A program made the position numbers and the translations under genes. Below the pieces are notes generated by a model. That model worked only from the letters and a program-made list of their open reading frames with translations. It was not told where the DNA came from and ran no database searches. A stretch of DNA of 64,000 bases from Brumimicrobium salinarum. Lineage in GTDB: Bacteria; Bacteroidota; Bacteroidia; Flavobacteriales_D; Crocinitomicaceae. Numbering within the stretch: the stretch's first letter is position 1; each line of letters starts with the position of its first letter. Where the stretch lies: assembly GCF_002844555.1 (NCBI RefSeq), contig NZ_PJNI01000014.1:1-64000 (forward strand), read 5' to 3'. Below, in pieces: positions 1 to 6,368 of the stretch.

Positions 1-33
1 ATGTTTAGGGTAGAACCTTCACGTGTAGTTTAG

Positions 34-174
34 CTATGCTGCTTCTTCGTGGTCAGAAATGGCCCGCAGCTTTTGTAAGGATATGGTTCTTCCGTAATGC
101 TTTGCGATCATGCGGAGGCAAGTTGGACCACAGTCCATTGCGTCGGGTTGTTTGTAGAACTTAAATCCTCCCAT
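34..174 (-). pseudogene. C39 peptidase-containing ABC exporter, N-terminal part, disrupted
   Basis: Read on the minus strand from ATG at 174, this gives 46 residues that match the start of the C39 (bacteriocin-processing) peptidase domain of peptidase-containing ABC transporters. The catalytic Cys lies in DCGPTCLRMIAKHYG, preceded by the usual YKQPDAMD. In this family the domain cleaves double-glycine leaders as the peptide is exported, which fits the GG-leader precursors upstream. The frame ends at TAG (34-36), just where the conserved TREG motif should follow. ACT-ACA-CGT-GAA-GGT is present further on but in another frame. The spacing suggests about 22 extra bases between 'ISE' and 'TTREG'. 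The rest of the gene would lie left of the window. It starts 71 bp after the esterase stop, so it is probably the last gene of the RiPP operon. Confidence 0.65.
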
Positions 175-245
175 TACCCATATAAATATAAATTCAACAC
201 AGTGTAACTTTTACTTTTAGTCATCAGTATGCTTAGCATTTTCTT

Positions 246-1388
246 TTACAGTTTCCCCTTCACACGAATAATATCCTCCTTGTAAGGACTAAAATCAAAA
301 ATAGCATCTTCATCTACCATTAGTTTATATCCTCTTTCATAATTAAGAAGAGCTTTTCGATAGTTTTTCTTTTCTTCATAATACAACCCTTTGTAAAAAT
401 ATAGTTGCCATATTTCCGAATCTATATTTAAGTGTTCATTACAATAGGGAATTATGTCTTCTAAATCTCCCCATCGCTCAATGAATATAGGAGCTCTTAT
501 AATATCGCTCCTGCGATAATTTAATTTAATACCATACACTTTTTCAATATTAGAATAATAGTTTTCAAGAAAACCTGATTCACCTTTTATACTTTTAAAC
601 AGTTTTTTAGCTTTTCGTATAGAATACCTATCTAGTTCCTGTAATTCATAAAAAACATGAATCAATCCGTTCTGAACGGATTGAGGAATGACAGTTGTAT
701 GTGTGGTATTCTTTATACGCTCAATTTTATATGAGATCTTAGAAAGTTTATCTCGTTTCGGAATAGACTTAAATGATTTCTCATGTCCACTCAAGTCATC
801 TTTTGCATACGAAAAGTATAACCTTAAATCCTTATTGATTTTTTTGTATGCACTATTAATATTAACCAAAGTACTATCTGTTGCCATAGGGCTAATAGAT
901 ACAAGCGCATCTACATATTCGGGATTCTTCGTTATTAAATTATTCCAAAACAGAGCTGTAAGTGAGTGACCGACTGCCACACGATAACTACTCTTAGGAT
1001 AAATTGAGTCAATCATCGGAAAAAACTCTTCAACAAGAAACCTCCTGGTTAAATCGCTATTCTTACCAAAACTTCCATTCGGATTAGTTGCAAAGTCTTT
1101 CCATCTATCATCACTTTCTATTTCTATAACAATTGCGTTTATACTTCTCCCAAATTTGGCATTCACCTGATTAATACCATACGTCATTGCCCCTAAACCA
1201 TCCAGAGTATAAATTATAGGTGAACTTTGATTTATTATTCCAGTTGGTTTATAAATCTTGTACCCTCGTGTTTGATTCAATATCTTTGAATCTATACTTA
1301 ATTCCTGAGAATTAGCATTTGCTTGTGACATCAATAGAATGAGACTTAATAACAACAACCTAGTTCCATACATTTTTGAAAGGATCAT
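246..1388 (-). CDS. Secreted alpha/beta-hydrolase esterase (IroE/Fes-like) with TPR-like tail
   Basis: A 380-residue protein with an N-terminal signal peptide (LLLLSLILLMSQANA), so probably periplasmic. Residues about 45-250 resemble the putative esterase family that includes enterochelin esterase IroE: a YTLDG strand, the nucleophile elbow GHSLTALF with the expected catalytic Ser, and a late TTHTT region that could supply the His. The C-terminal 100 residues include a TPR-like helix pair (YFYKGLYYEEKKNYRKALL). The start overlaps the end of the SPASM gene by 29 bp, or 14 bp if Met6 at 1373 is used, so the two are translationally linked. The substrate is unknown. Inference only: in a cluster that may make ester-linked peptides, it could cleave those esters for processing or self-protection. 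Confidence 0.7.
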   Translation of the reverse strand: MILSKMYGTRLLLLSLILLMSQANANSQELSIDSKILNQTRGYKIYKPTGIINQSSPIIYTLDGLGAMTYGINQVNAKFGRSINAIVIEIESDDRWKDFATNPNGSFGKNSDLTRRFLVEEFFPMIDSIYPKSSYRVAVGHSLTALFWNNLITKNPEYVDALVSISPMATDSTLVNINSAYKKINKDLRLYFSYAKDDLSGHEKSFKSIPKRDKLSKISYKIERIKNTTHTTVIPQSVQNGLIHVFYELQELDRYSIRKAKKLFKSIKGESGFLENYYSNIEKVYGIKLNYRRSDIIRAPIFIERWGDLEDIIPYCNEHLNIDSEIWQLYFYKGLYYEEKKNYRKALLNYERGYKLMVDEDAIFDFSPYKEDIIRVKGKL

Positions 1389-2394
1389 AATTACATTTTT
1401 CTGGTTTACCTAAACGTTCATTATCTGTTGTATAAGCTCTACAATCAGAGCAAATATCTCTAAATTCGCAGACTTTGCAAACTTTTATATTTGCTTTGCC
1501 AATTTCCCCCATTGATTTAAATTCTCTACTTGATACTATAGAGTCTAAATCTTTTATGTTGCTTATATTACCATAAACTTCTTTTGTAGATGGGCAATTC
1601 TTGATAGAACCATTTATATCTACTCCTATTTTTCGATTCAAACAAGAGTTGAAATCAACTGCTGAATTATGCTTTTCAAGACTCCTATTGAATGTTGCGT
1701 AGAATGGATTAATTACACCACAGTGAGAATCATCTTTGATGATGTCCGAAATCATACATATATTACCCATGTTTGATCTTTCTACCTCGCTAGTCCTTCT
1801 AATGACTTTATTATCAGGTGAACTATATACAACTAAATTCCTGATTTTGGGAAACATCAATGGTAACATCTCTAAATATTTAAACGACATATAAGAATCA
1901 TAATGAATAATATACTCAACTGTTTCTATATGGTCATTTTTCTCAGTTTTTAAAAGTATATCTGTAATGAATTCCTGTGAAAATCGTGAAAAAAAACGAA
2001 ATTGAAAATGTTTACAGTTTGTATAAGATATTAAATTTATTGCATTAAGAATACTATAATCTGAGGTTTCATTATAATCAATAATACAATTGTCTATACT
2101 ATAAGGTGAGTTAATTGATTTGTCAATTTTAGGGAATTTACTTGGGTTATTCGTAAAAAAAGCCAATTCATTATTTTTTAGAAAATTCATGTTCTCAGTT
2201 AATATCTCTTGACTCTCTTGATCATACTCGCTTAACACATCTTGAACCGGCCGATTTTCGCATGTCTCTAAAAAATCATATAGGTCATTGGAAATCGTGA
2301 ATATGTGATTTCTTTGAACATCCGTAATTAGACTTCTATTAACACCTTTTGTTTTCAGACTAGAAGAAAATAATATGAAATAATCCTGCATCAA
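1360..2394 (-). CDS. gwsS: Grasp-with-spasm system SPASM-domain peptide maturase (GwsS-like)
   Basis: This 344-residue protein has a C-terminal SPASM domain: CLNRKIGVDINGSIKNCP, then KVCKVCEFRDICSDC and a last Cys in KCNYDP. These cysteines would bind auxiliary Fe-S clusters. No CxxxCxxC radical-SAM motif is visible in the N-terminal part, which matches the SPASM partner of the Bacteroidota grasp-with-spasm peptide system rather than a true radical-SAM enzyme. The gene next door encodes the matching ATP-grasp, and the precursors have GG leaders, so the assignment rests on both domain and context. Its start overlaps the 78-residue gene by 4 bp (ATGA). The exact chemistry of this family is not settled; a role in binding or positioning the precursor is inference. 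Confidence 0.8.
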   Translation of the reverse strand: MMQDYFILFSSSLKTKGVNRSLITDVQRNHIFTISNDLYDFLETCENRPVQDVLSEYDQESQEILTENMNFLKNNELAFFTNNPSKFPKIDKSINSPYSIDNCIIDYNETSDYSILNAINLISYTNCKHFQFRFFSRFSQEFITDILLKTEKNDHIETVEYIIHYDSYMSFKYLEMLPLMFPKIRNLVVYSSPDNKVIRRTSEVERSNMGNICMISDIIKDDSHCGVINPFYATFNRSLEKHNSAVDFNSCLNRKIGVDINGSIKNCPSTKEVYGNISNIKDLDSIVSSREFKSMGEIGKANIKVCKVCEFRDICSDCRAYTTDNERLGKPEKCNYDPFKNVWN

Positions 2395-2627
2395 TCTTTT
2401 AGTTTATCAAGTGAATAAATCTTCGAAATCAATTGATTTGTTCCCGACAAGTAGTGTTTACAAGTCATATACATCTTGTTTTTCCTTGGAGAATAGAATT
2501 TATCTAAAGGATAATCTGTAGAAGTATTTTCTTCCCCTAAGTGAACATAATTTACCGTTTTAAAAAATAGAGGTAACTTTTCTCCCTCCTTTTTGGGTAT
2601 TCTTGTTTTTATATTAATTTTTTCCAT
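2391..2627 (-). CDS. Small unknown protein between gwsG and gwsS
   Basis: A 78-residue basic protein (starts MEKINIKTRIPKKEGEKLP) with no signal peptide, membrane segment or motif that I recognise. It overlaps the end of the ATP-grasp gene by 14 bp and the start of the SPASM gene by 4 bp, which is good evidence that it is a real, co-translated member of the operon. A role as adaptor or leader-recognition subunit is possible, but nothing in the sequence shows it. Confidence 0.6.
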   Translation of the reverse strand: MEKINIKTRIPKKEGEKLPLFFKTVNYVHLGEENTSTDYPLDKFYSPRKNKMYMTCKHYLSGTNQLISKIYSLDKLKD

Positions 2628-3623
2628 AAGCTAAGTACTCTGCGATTTTCTGTTCCAATTTATAATTACAAGGCACCGATGTCATACCAAATTGACCAAC
2701 TGGATTTGCCTCTAAAAAATAATAAACACCATCCTTACCTAGGATAATATCTATACTTGCTGTTTCTAGTGTAAGTTCATTCATAAGTTTTAAGAGTTTT
2801 TCCTCAACCTCATCAGGTAAAGTGTAAGGGATAGTTCTATTTGGCTTCTCATCATTATAAACTCTAAAATCAACCTCTGTTTGACTATCTAATTGAGAAA
2901 AAATAGCCATTGAATAAAATTTGTCAATTAAAAAAAGGTTCGAATCTCAATGTCTTTTACTATTTCTTCCTGTAACAGCGAAGGCATGAAGGTATCTGCC
3001 ATTCCGTTGATATCATTCAGTGATATTCGTTCTACGAAAGATGTAAATACTCTATTGGAATCATCATAAAAAAGTGGGTTTTCATGAATTGCCTTCCCTA
3101 TAACCTTTCCATCACAGGATTTATAAAAATCCAGAGCTTGTTTCCTATCTGTGCAAATTATATATCTGGGGATATTTACACCCAATTTGTAGGCAAGATC
3201 TAAAACATCTAATTTATTTAGCGTTCCTGTTTCCCTTCTACCCAAAATATTAACATTTTTCAACCTACCTAACTTTTTGTAAAAGGTATTCAACAAAGCT
3301 CTATTTTCAAGACGTAAAGAATCTTTCAATTGATCTGGAGCATCCCCCCCTAAACCTTCAAAAGATAGACCATTTACATCAATGGTTAGAGGAAAACCAC
3401 CTCTTCTATACCATACAGCTGTCAAGTCCGATAAATAAATCTTCGTTTTATCATGTTGAAAACTATACTGAGGTTCTTGAAAAACCTCTGAATAGTCAAT
3501 ACAAACCTTAAAACTCACATCATCATCCATGTTCACTCTGTAATAATCCACAGAATAATGGATTAACCAATCTATTACGTCATTAGTCGAGGGATCGAAA
3601 TTTTCACTTATTATTAGAACCAT
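2614..3623 (-). CDS. gwsG: Grasp-with-spasm ATP-grasp peptide ligase (GwsG-like), frameshifted as read
   Basis: Two reading frames together make one ATP-grasp ligase of about 336 residues, related to graspetide (microviridin-type) ligases, which use ATP to form ester or amide links between side chains of a precursor. The first frame (3623-2928) runs from MVLIISENFDPSTNDV to LLQEEIVKDIEIRTFF and then stops. The second begins at once with FYSMAIFSQLDSQTEVDFR and contains the metal/ATP-binding end of the fold (TASIDIILGKDGVYYFLEANPVGQ). The break is at a run of seven T (plus-strand A7, 2930-2936): an eighth T restores TFFLIDKFYSMA. Total length 1010 = 3n-1 fits one missing base. A -1 slip on this run, or transcriptional slippage, would also give the full protein. 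Confidence 0.8.
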
Positions 3624-3638
3624 AAAATACTTAACTCA

Positions 3639-3776
3639 TTAATACATTTTCAGACGAGATAAAATAGAATTCATAACATCTATTCTCTTTAGATCTTTAT
3701 ATTCGTACTTTTCAATAATTGTTACTTTAAAACTAACAACCTCTTTTAAAGCTTTTAGCAATACAGGTTGAGTCAA
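3639..3776 (-). other. Possible small ORF between precursor and ATP-grasp genes
   Basis: An open frame of about 45 codons using a TTG start at 3776, ending SILSRLKMY. It fills much of the 192-bp gap between the precursor and gwsG and has a protein-like mix of residues (KEVVSFKVTIIEKYEYKD). There is no ATG start and I recognise no family. It could be a remnant, a frameshifted gene of which only the end remains, or chance. Confidence 0.2.
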
Positions 3777-3815
3777 ACTGTCTAATAGAGTTCAACACAC
3801 TACTTTTTAAGTAGA

Positions 3816-4007
3816 CTATATTGTCTCATCATCGGGTAAGGCTGAATCTGATACAGAATCTTTATCATACCAGCAACTTTTCGTAACTGTCTTGTATGTA
3901 GCTGTTGGACGCGATATTGATGTATGACTTCCTCCAATTAATTGATTCATTTTATCAAATTGCTTATCATTGAATCTTTTAACTCCCATCTTTTTAACAC
4001 TTTTCAT
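3816..4007 (-). CDS. gwsP: Grasp-with-spasm RiPP precursor peptide 1
   Basis: A 63-residue peptide. The leader (MKSVKKMGVKRFNDKQFDKM) ends in MNQLIGG, a double-Gly export site of the kind cut by C39 peptidase exporters. The core after GG is rich in Ser/Thr/Lys in its first half (SHTSISRPTATYKTVTKS) and in Asp/Glu in its second half (WYDKDS, then DSALPDDETI). That is what is expected for a graspetide in which hydroxyl or amine side chains are joined to carboxylates. It shares its leader and TKxxW[YF]DKDS with the second precursor. It is 192 bp upstream of gwsG on the same strand. Confidence 0.8.
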   Translation of the reverse strand: MKSVKKMGVKRFNDKQFDKMNQLIGGSHTSISRPTATYKTVTKSCWYDKDSVSDSALPDDETI

Positions 4008-4043
4008 AATTTTTATATTTTATTATTAAAATTTTTAGTCTAG

Positions 4044-4085
4044 AAAAAAAGTAGAATTAAACTCCATATAGGAGTTCAATTCTAC
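4044..4085 (-). terminator. Strong hairpin terminator between the two precursor genes
   Basis: On the minus strand a 15-bp stem with one G-T pair (GTAGAATTGAACTCC ... GGAGTTTAATTCTAC) and a 5-base loop is followed by seven T. It lies 18 bp after the stop of precursor 2 and about 37 bp before the start of precursor 1. It should make transcripts of precursor 2 mostly end here, with read-through, or a promoter in the short gap, serving the rest. Confidence 0.8.
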
Positions 4086-4102
4086 ACACTTAACTAAATA
4101 GC

Positions 4103-4287
4103 TTAACGAACTTCTTCACAAAGACACTCGTTTTGCGAATCTTTATCAAACCATCCTTCTTTCGTCGAATATTTCGAGGTAGACGTTCTGAACAATCCTG
4201 GTCCAGCAGCTCCTCCAACTAATTCATTCATTTTGTCAAATTCTTTTTCGTTGAATCTTTCGATTCCTTCTTTTTAACACTTTTCAT
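4103..4287 (-). CDS. gwsP: Grasp-with-spasm RiPP precursor peptide 2, frameshifted as read
   Basis: As read, translation from ATG at 4287 stops after about 19 codons. Adding one A to the A5 run (plus-strand T5, 4271-4275) restores a 61-residue paralogue of precursor 1: leader MKSVKKEGIERFNEKEFDKM, then MNELVGG, then a core with TSTSKYSTKEGWFDKDS and a cysteine-containing acidic tail (NECLCEEVR). Length 185 = 3n-1 fits one missing base. The leader is closely similar to precursor 1, but the core differs except for TKxxW[YF]DKDS. It is either a functional second precursor hidden by a sequencing indel or a recent pseudogene. Confidence 0.7.
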
Positions 4288-4413
4288 AATAATAAATTTT
4301 AAACCTACATTAAAACTTAGTTATCTTTGTAACTGCATGTAGGTAACTACAATTACTTAGATTGCGTAAAATGTATCCCTTCTGACAAATTGATTATTTA
4401 CGTCTATATAAAG

Positions 4414-4436
4414 AGCGTGTGTCAGCACGCTTTTTT
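4414..4436 (+). terminator. Hairpin plus T-tract, orphan terminator
   Basis: AGCGTG-TGTCAG-CACGCT followed by TTTTTT forms a 6-bp GC-rich stem in the plus orientation. No plus-strand gene lies upstream in this gap. A TATCTTTG box at 4322-4329 on the same strand lies about 90 bp upstream, so the pair could bound a small RNA. No matching -33 TTG is seen. Confidence 0.45.
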
Positions 4437-4561
4437 ATATTTCACAATCCTCCTCAAAAAAAACACAACTCCACCTTATGCGCAGTCAGTTGATTTATAA
4501 ACTCCTTGATTTGTTTTGCTGAATCAAATTTGTGACATTTCAAAATATGCACCTAATAAAA

Positions 4562-4586
4562 ACGCCGTATTTTAGGCGTATTTTTC
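4562..4586. terminator. Short hairpin with T-rich flanks on both sides
   Basis: ACGCC-gtatttta-GGCGT has T-rich sequence after it on the plus strand and TTTTTATT after it on the minus strand. It could end transcripts from either side, but the stem is only 5 bp. Confidence 0.35.
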
Positions 4587-4595
4587 ATTTTTGCG

Positions 4596-4743
4596 TCTAC
4601 GTCTTTATCTACGTCCATCTACGTCTTTTTATGTAAATAGCCTATTTTACTGGTGTTTTAGACGTACGTCTTTTTTTTAGACTTTTGTTTGAGTAGTGTT
4701 GAAAAAAGTGTTTTTTTGCAATAAAAAAATGCTCATCTACGTC
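4596..4743. repeat. Repeated TCTACGTC motif in the gene-free gap
   Basis: TCTACGTC occurs at 4596, 4608, 4618 and 4736, with related ACGTACGTC at 4662-4670. The first three are spaced 12 and 10 bases apart. No gene overlaps them. They could be operator-like sites or simple-sequence decay; the rest of 4290-5030 holds only the hairpins and the C39 remnant listed. Confidence 0.4.
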
Positions 4744-4855
4744 TTTTTTGTCATAGAAAGACAAGTTTAAGGTGGAGATTTGGGTGAGTTTTTAGTTCTT
4801 TTTGGTGTTTTTTTGATGTTTTGAAGAAATGGGAGGTGGGTTTTTTAGGGGATAG

Positions 4856-4925
4856 TATTTTTTGTATGGATATTTTGCGTCCGTAATGCTTTGCACCGTC
4901 GAAGGCAGTAACGAAGTTACTTTTT
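4856..4925 (-). pseudogene. Decayed fragment of a C39 peptidase domain
   Basis: The minus strand encodes AKHYGRKISIQKI, nearly the same as AKHYGRTISLQKL in the C39 domain at the left edge (34-174). At DNA level the two share an exact 15-base block (GCAAAGCATTACGGA) and about 30 of 38 positions around it. Upstream, ACTGCCTTCGA lines up with ACTTGCCTCCGC of the other copy but with one base lost, so the Cys motif is out of frame. The 63-residue open frame over this stretch is therefore not a gene but the remains of an exporter. Confidence 0.6.
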
Positions 4926-5031
4926 AAACTTTCAAATGACACACTTTTCTGAACACACTCAACGGATAAATTAGAAAACTACTTTTTAGATATTGGCAGG
5001 ATAATTTTTTTCAATTTATTATTTAAGCCCA

Positions 5032-5068
5032 CAAAAAAAGGAACATCTCTCGACATTCCTTTTTTTAA
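5032..5068 (-). terminator. Terminator after odhB
   Basis: AAAAAAAGGAA ... TTCCTTTTTTT forms an inverted repeat around a 13-base loop, 20 bp after the odhB stop. It works in the minus orientation and could also act on the plus strand. Confidence 0.7.
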
Positions 5069-5087
5069 ATATGCTTATTCGTTCTAA

Positions 5088-6368
5088 TTATAGACCCAAC
5101 AAAACTTCGTAAGGATCCTTACCTCCAAAGATCATTCTCTCCGGATTCTCCAACATTTCCTTAACTTTCACTAAGAAACTTACAGATTCCTTTCCATCGA
5201 TAATACGGTGGTCATAAGAAAGTGCTAAATACATCATCGGACGAATTTCAACCTTTCCATCAATAGCTACAGGACGCTCAACGATATTGTGCATTCCAAG
5301 AATAGCAGATTGCGGTGGGTTAATAATTGGTGTTGACATCATCGAACCGAATACTCCTCCATTGGTAATCGTAAATGTTCCTCCAGTCATTTCATCTGGC
5401 GTAATTTTACCATCACGTGCTTTAATCGCTAATCGTTTAATTTCAGCTTCAATTTCAGCCAAAGTCATCTGCTCTGCGTTACGCACAACAGGAACCATTA
5501 ACCCTTTTGGAGAGGAAACTGCAATTCCGATATCTGCATAATCATGCATGATCATTTCTTTTCCTTCGATTTGCGCATTCACAGAAGGGAACAAGTTCAA
5601 GGCTTCAGTTACCGCTTTGGTGAAGAAAGACATAAATCCTAAATTCACATCGTGGTGTTCCTTGAACATTTTTTTGTATTTCGTTCTCAAGTCCATGATT
5701 GGCTTCATGTCTACCTCGTTGAACGTTGTTAACATCGCTGTTTCACTTTTTACAGCAACTAAACGTTCAGCAACCTTACGGCGTAACATTGACATTTTCT
5801 TAGGATTTTTGTCGCGTGTTCCACCCCAGCCTGAAGTAGATTCAGCATCAAATCCAGCAGCCATTGCATCAACAACATCTTGTTTTGTAATGCGGCCATC
5901 TTTTCCTGTTCCTGAAACCTGTTTAGCAGAAACATTGTTTTCCTTCATTATTTTTGAAGCTGCAGGAGAAGCAGTTCCAGTAGCATAAGTTTCTTTTGAT
6001 TGCCCTTTCGAACCTTCATCTTTTTGCTCTTTTTCCTCCTTTTTATCTTCCTTCTTGTCTTCTTTTACTTCCTTGGCATCGTCTTCTTTTTTATCCGCTT
6101 TTGGCTCCTCTTTTTTCTCAGGTGCTTCAGCCGATGTATCAATATGACAAACCACTTGTCCAACCTCAACAGTATCTCCCTCTTCAGCTTTTAAAGTAAT
6201 TGTTCCCGCCGCTTCGGCTGGTAACTCTAAAGTTGCTTTGTCAGAATCAACTTCTGCTATAGTTTGGTCTTTTTCTACGTAATCTCCATCAGCCACAAGC
6301 CATTCAGCGATCTCAACTTCTGAAATCGATTCTCCTGGACTTGGTACTTTCATTTCTACTACTGACAT
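5088..6368 (-). CDS. odhB: 2-oxoglutarate dehydrogenase E2, dihydrolipoyllysine succinyltransferase
   Basis: The 426-residue E2 subunit transfers succinyl groups from the lipoyl arm to CoA in the TCA cycle. The N-terminal lipoyl domain (residues 1-80) has the lipoylated Lys in [12 protein letters not shown] Lys/Glu-rich hinge follows (about 85-125), then the peripheral subunit-binding domain ([19 protein letters not shown], about 132-165). The catalytic domain ends with SYDHRIIDG, which carries the active-site His and Asp. The length is normal for the family. It starts 18 bp after the E1 gene, so both are one operon, and a terminator follows. The E3 subunit is not in the window. Confidence 0.96.

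Follow-up and report, generated by a model that had tools for sequence, protein, structure and literature searches.

A frameshifted grasp-with-spasm cassette beside sucAB in Brumimicrobium salinarum and a proposed role for its LPL-family small protein

Grasp-with-spasm systems (TIGR04192/TIGR04193; graspetide group 14; ATP-grasp branch 5) combine an ATP-grasp ligase, GwsG, with a SPASM protein, GwsS, and encode a small protein between the two, with GG-leader precursors upstream and a C39 transporter downstream. Group 14 is always accompanied by a SPASM protein, according to the sections of PMC13097080 consulted here. The small protein has been described as the LPL family, of which, in the consulted sections of Makarova et al. 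2022, 116 proteins were collected by PSI-BLAST, always directly upstream of a branch 5 SPASM gene and without a conserved GG motif; these proteins were suggested either to act like PqqD or to interact with the ligase (PMC8939145). Here we describe a cassette of this type at the start of a 64,000-nucleotide stretch of Brumimicrobium salinarum (Crocinitomicaceae) DNA (the window; contig NZ_PJNI01000014.1, positions 1 to 64,000), whose first letter is base 1 of contig C6 in a draft genome of 86 contigs (G000). We read the locus, with a probability of roughly 0.4, as a graspetide cassette that is frameshifted in the window and that, where intact, would use GwsS as a leader scaffold, GwsG as a cross-linker and the LPL protein as a tether between them. 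The grasp-with-spasm system and the LPL family are already known. New, as far as the open-access literature searched goes, are a wider C-terminal motif of the LPL family, a predicted RiPP (ribosomally synthesized and post-translationally modified peptide) recognition element (RRE) in a GwsS that has lost the radical-SAM motif, and a cassette array with conserved flanks; the C-terminal motif may already be shown in the supplementary figures of Makarova et al. That search returned no paper under the name grasp-with-spasm, and the TIGR accessions and gene names gave irrelevant matches.

All cassette genes lie on the minus strand and run, from high to low coordinates, as precursor 2, precursor 1, gwsG (in two frames), a 78-residue open reading frame (ORF), gwsS, an esterase-like gene and a C39-peptidase stub (Table 1), with family matches beyond chance (E-values 2e-72, 2e-36 and 3e-44). 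An initial annotation, made from the letters alone, had filed the locus as a one-strand grasp-with-spasm cluster, and this holds: the SPASM gene clears the TIGR04193 cut-off, the ligase is homologous to TIGR04192, and the genes are adjacent, with the intact precursor 1 and its GG leader upstream. Its span of 2391..4287 takes in the precursors, the ligase and the 78-residue ORF and omits gwsS, the esterase-like gene and the C39 fragment; nor had it seen the frameshifts in ligase and precursor or the cassette array that ends at the contig edge. The window differs from the usual grasp-with-spasm layout in these frameshifts, in the reduction of the transporter to a contig-edge stub and in the esterase-like gene that stands between gwsS and the stub.

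The 78-residue protein had been thought unlike any family and perhaps an extra component of the system. It instead fits the LPL family as characterized in the consulted part of PMC8939145, where that family is already a regular component: it is encoded directly upstream of the SPASM gene, carries LPL at residues 18–20 and has no GG in its sequence. The overlaps first reported are correct, 14 bp with the 3′ part of gwsG and 4 bp with gwsS, the latter if the TTG start is used; with the next ATG, at 2391, it shrinks to 1 nt (TGATG). No family in NCBIfam, Pfam, PADLOC or PHROGs matched the protein, and the 84 LPL members compared with NCBIfam and Pfam gave, among the matches listed, scattered single-member matches only.

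A comparison of the small protein across related loci had also been proposed, and the protein proved not to be absent from them. The best 80 of 484 GwsS relatives (the named set) gave 87 gwsS rows and 84 unique gwsG–gwsS pairs; L069, double in the script, was taken once, and the 84 exclude L072, which has the small ORF but no gwsG end that could be located, as well as a second copy in L105 (a gwsS fragment). An ORF of 49–85 residues occupies the gap in all 84 pairs (83 by script, L087 by reading), overlapping gwsG in 60 and gwsS in 54 of 83, with starts chosen by rule. A search of 240 genomes with TIGR04193 (the family set) found a match in 30, and the loci taken held 52 gwsS rows, 43 of them, including the window, with gwsG alongside; the other nine, without a gwsG end, represent a contig edge, a fragment or a lone gene. 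The small ORF was again present in every one of the 43 pairs found in the window's family with the hidden Markov model (40 by script, three by reading), of which three are on the same contigs as the named loci L057, L083 and L106. One pair of the species' own genome weighs against this regularity: a divergent gwsG–gwsS pair on contig C19 holds a 55-residue ORF without a match to the LPL profile, its gwsG-like gene scoring 106.8 bits, below the cut-off, and its gwsS-like gene matching the GwsS profile in the SPASM part only (probability 83%). This third cassette of C19 (L136, 11797–14055) also contains a 61-residue GG precursor and a 648-residue unknown protein. Near five lone gwsS-like genes without gwsG (L025, L027, L030, L047 and L048), the neighbouring small ORFs were judged on reading not to be LPL; a conserved stretch containing PLEF is common to three of the five, and a conserved segment of about 120 bp, coding or RNA, lies directly upstream of the SPASM genes in L025, L027 and L048. 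The LPL protein of L063, a locus titled Beijerinckiaceae, shares 63% identity with its counterpart in a Sphingobacteriaceae metagenome-assembled genome, perhaps owing to a mis-binned contig.

Judged from nucleotide comparison of its relatives, the LPL protein is under purifying selection, with pN (nonsynonymous divergence) below pS (synonymous divergence) in 39 of 39 pairs of close relatives drawn from 83 proteins, pairs that come from few clades and are not independent. Together with the motifs, this selection rules out a chance ORF. Two columns are 90% conserved over 84 aligned members, P19 and S68 in window numbering. LP followed by a hydrophobic residue occurs in the N-terminal half of 69 of 85 proteins (200 shuffles: mean 16.8, maximum 26), and a KPISK-like pattern, counted here in addition to the published description in the consulted sections of PMC8939145, in the C-terminal half of 80 (shuffles: mean 23.1, maximum 33), in its strict form in 54 (shuffle mean 0.1); since the patterns were written after the sequences had been seen, these counts are descriptive and do not amount to a test. 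In several Flavobacterium members, among them L055, L059 and L066, KPISKII is kept and LPL is missing. The family thus seems to be marked more widely by its C-terminal motif than by LPL, and some 'unrelated' small proteins encoded between gwsG and gwsS may belong to it. It is very improbable that the LPL protein is itself a modified product or a second precursor: the protein is small, fast-evolving (median identity 0.21) and encoded in a peptide-modifying operon, but what it conserves is P, S and a basic motif at the C terminus and not a Thr/Asp core, the two GG precursors lie elsewhere in the cassette, and the family has no conserved GG motif in the consulted account (PMC8939145).

CX3CX2C is the radical-SAM motif. 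As the initial annotation had noted for the window protein, GwsS does without it: the motif is present in none of 71 aligned sequences (70 of the 84 named GwsS plus the window), and by this measure GwsS is not a radical SAM enzyme. Its structure model (pLDDT, predicted local distance difference test, 89.8) consists of an N-terminal RRE, a radical-SAM-like barrel and a SPASM domain, as identified by Foldseek and VIA-align matches, with the predicted N terminus matching solved RREs in fold; a sequence search of the PDB with the GwsS profile returned nothing below an E-value of 0.06. A near-constant C-terminal tail (...ECGVISNE..F.IDH.KI..IN.ELW), far more alike than the remaining protein, is common to the GwsS proteins of L022, L031, L034, L041, L049 and L032 and absent from that of the window; in L034 and L084, direct repeats span the 3′ end of gwsS.

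The predicted RRE bears on the first role suggested for the LPL protein, that of a PqqD-like peptide chaperone presenting the precursor to the SPASM protein (Makarova et al. 2022, in the part consulted). The strict association of its gene with a place immediately before the SPASM gene (PMC8939145) speaks for that role, but a PqqD-fold RRE predicted in GwsS itself makes it less needed, the LPL model (pLDDT 72; predicted template modelling score 0.31; a poor model) gives no clear sign of a compact winged-helix fold, and no Pfam family was matched by more than one of the 84 members at E ≤ 1, among the matches listed; we consider it quite unlikely. The second suggestion, that of a ligase activator whose LP motif mimics the leader motif of microviridin-type precursors and engages only GwsG, appears unlikely to us, if less markedly so. 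The likeness of LP to the leader motif and the lack of that motif in branch 5 precursors are both noted in the consulted sections of PMC8939145, a few members resemble the leader motif closely (L091, PFIARFW), and LPL distances track those of GwsG (r = 0.52). The formal leader pattern Phhx(1,2)h, however, is found in only 15 of 85 N-terminal halves, inside the shuffle range (mean 8.5, maximum 16), which rules out the N-terminal motif as a statistically backed copy of it, and an activator role leaves the C-terminal motif unexplained. Over 74 triples, the distance-matrix correlation is highest between LPL and GwsS (0.65), followed by LPL–GwsG (0.52) and GwsG–GwsS (0.47), and the partial correlation of LPL distances reaches 0.54 with GwsS, against 0.32 with GwsG; these values fit a tether and do not prove one.

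We prefer the tether because the LPL model is not compact, a motif lies near each end of the protein and the gene stands between gwsG and gwsS. In the mechanism that we propose for intact cassettes, in its binding, tethering and chemistry alike, the GG leader of the precursor would bind the N-terminal RRE of GwsS, a former radical-SAM enzyme that may now serve as a leader-holding scaffold with auxiliary Fe–S clusters. GwsG would phosphorylate Asp/Glu side chains of the core and link them to Ser/Thr/Lys, tethered to GwsS by a mostly extended LPL protein whose two conserved motifs lie close to its opposite ends. The C39 transporter would then cleave after GG and export the product.

The window copy, as read, probably makes no active ligase. 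The ATP-grasp ligase first reported is confirmed as a homologue of TIGR04192 and not as a single ORF: the two parts of the profile fall in different frames, each below the cut-off, and no single open frame exceeds it, so that the cassette is by homology a broken grasp-with-spasm member and not an intact system. Of the two GG-leader peptides reported, both are present and alike in leader and core (E 6.8e-12), but the leader of precursor 2 is out of frame with its GG and core; the ATG at 4287 opens a frame of only 19 codons, and GG and core lie in another (4231–4103). With both genes affected, the copy is probably non-functional as read. Alternatively, the breaks could be sequence or assembly errors, or be bypassed by slippage, and the cluster fully active. 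The gwsG break sits at a run of T (of the 69 relatives in which this site was located, 10 have 7 or 8 T there in an open frame), split gwsG genes are also found in G057 and G082, and the stop and the new ATG are only 18 bp apart, a spacing that makes a split enzyme conceivable. Two breaks fall within about 1.4 kb, however, the cassette is bordered by transporter relics, which fits decay, and long ORFs elsewhere in the window, the largest of 2267 codons, look unsplit when judged by eye rather than by homology, which favours decay over sequencing error; a fully active cluster therefore seems doubtful to us. Programmed frameshifting as a trait of the gwsG family is ruled out by the relatives that have the same T-run and an open frame. 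In L017 (G057) and L020 (G082), the breaks are at other positions of the gene than in the window.

The window cassette apparently belongs to a group of several beside sucAB, all sharing one complete transporter. A 571-bp query taken between the precursors and sucB (4290–4860) is found at three places in the species' own genome, including C28 (91% over 195 bp) and C19 (94% over 144 bp), and at four in G010, a genome of the same genus (85–94%); among the ten genus genomes searched, G008 gave one marginal 48-bp match and the other seven none. sucAB adjoins the array in both species and is 81% identical between them; GwsS is 28% identical and the inter-cassette DNA 93–94% alike. In G010, direct repeats of 185–300 nt recur every 4.3–4.4 kb, and both a gwsS fragment and the first cassette terminate in C39 stubs, the whole C39 transporter standing at the last cassette only. 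In the species' own genome the full transporter is on C19, and the first 63 bp of the window contig are identical to the end of C28; from these, the likely order, across contigs that are not joined, is sucAB, window cassette, C28 cassette, and C19 cassette with transporter. Within the window, a 35-nt repeat (4860–4894) matches 71–105 at 86%. Stubs between cassettes also occur in Flavobacterium macrobrachii (L084) and G023 (L039); of six named loci with two gwsS rows (the split L069 aside), L089, L093 and L095 have no such repeats, and arrays are thus not general. Tentatively, we combine these observations into a possible wider picture, in which group 14 would form a three-part complex of an ATP-grasp ligase, a leader receptor derived from a radical-SAM-SPASM enzyme and an LPL tether with two motifs, KPISK rather than LPL marking the whole family, and in this genus the cassettes beside sucAB would be exchanged by recombination in their conserved flanks, older ones decaying as in the window.

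Table 1 Features of the cassette and its flanks in the window
Feature	Coordinates	Strand	Evidence
Relic like the 5′ end of a C39 transporter, upstream cassette edge	4754..4942	-	phmmer to G010 (L033) relics and C28 stub, 2.6e-15 to 3.3e-5
Conserved inter-cassette region, upstream of precursors	4290..4860	no strand	571-bp query search of genus genomes
Precursor 2, leader and GG-core in separate frames	4103..4287	-	ORF reading, likeness to precursor 1
Precursor 1, 63 residues, intact, GG leader (...LIGG), core rich in Thr/Ser and Asp/Glu	3816..4007	-	
45-residue ORF, TTG start, possibly no gene	3639..3776	-	between precursors and gwsG
gwsG N-terminal fragment, 231 residues	2928..3623	-	TIGR04192 positions 1–218, 125.8 bits (cut-off 230)
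gwsG C-terminal fragment, 98 residues, DFR motif at its residue 14	2614..2910	-	TIGR04192 positions 226–318, 151.6 bits (cut-off 230)
LPL-family small protein, 78 residues	2391..2627	-	position, LPL at 18–20, ISK at 67–69, family alignment
gwsS	1360..2394	-	TIGR04193 244.4 bits (cut-off 175), 2.1e-72; predicted RRE (~4–82), radical-SAM-like barrel, SPASM
Esterase-like protein, overlapping gwsS end	246..1388	-	PF00756, 1.7e-9
C39-peptidase transporter stub, 46 residues, contig edge	34..174	-	PF03412 positions 2–40 of 133, 8.9e-10

Among the remaining features, precursor 1 matches TIGR04149 weakly (12.7 bits, cut-off 25), the C39 stub ends 34 bp short of the contig end, and a Pfam search found no C39 in the upstream relic. 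None of the other fetched loci that were searched contained a relative of the esterase-like protein; the 45-residue ORF has no relative among the loci searched and no NCBIfam or Pfam match, and its slot holds a larger gene in other cassettes. An Rfam scan of 1–5100 gave two sub-threshold chance matches only. The array as a whole spans window positions 1–5087, L032 (C28), L136 (C19) and L033/L149 (G010). In the C28 cassette, the start of gwsG is overlapped by a gene for a lipoprotein-like protein of 189 residues (L032, 2466–3035), possibly the equivalent of cluster 23 in Makarova et al.; G003 has a protein of similar appearance close to sucB (L150, 1519–2040).

Were GwsS a leader scaffold and the LPL protein a tether, there would be a simple reason for GwsG and a precursor alone to fail in reconstitution, and adding both partners would make the many diverse graspetides of Bacteroidota accessible. 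For the precursor diversity beside similar ligases, left unexplained in the consulted part of the 2022 report, the cassette array would supply a mechanism.

Comparison with better-characterized enzymes places the components of the cassette. The radical SAM-SPASM RiPP maturases CteB and TigE match the predicted GwsS fold over nearly all its length, and SuiB and PqqE over the barrel–SPASM part; GwsS differs from all four in lacking CX3CX2C and is 10–12% identical to them. An intact GwsG of the same genus is homologous to the microviridin ligases MdnB/MdnC and CdnC (PDB 7m4s, 5ig8, 5ig9 and 7mgv; E 8e-26 to 3e-19), which bind precursors via the precursors' own leader motif and are not known to have an LPL or SPASM partner. 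Dependence of a graspetide synthetase on a co-encoded partner has been described for MirB/MirC of rosaritide and CorB/CorC of corallotide, which, in the sections of PMC13097080 consulted, differ from the present system in their SurA-like or 2-oxoglutarate-Fe(II) (2OG-Fe(II)) partners and belong to groups 21 and 15 rather than 14. The N-terminal domain of MirC is weakly RRE-like in the same account (PMC13097080), a likeness to the RRE predicted at the N terminus of GwsS.

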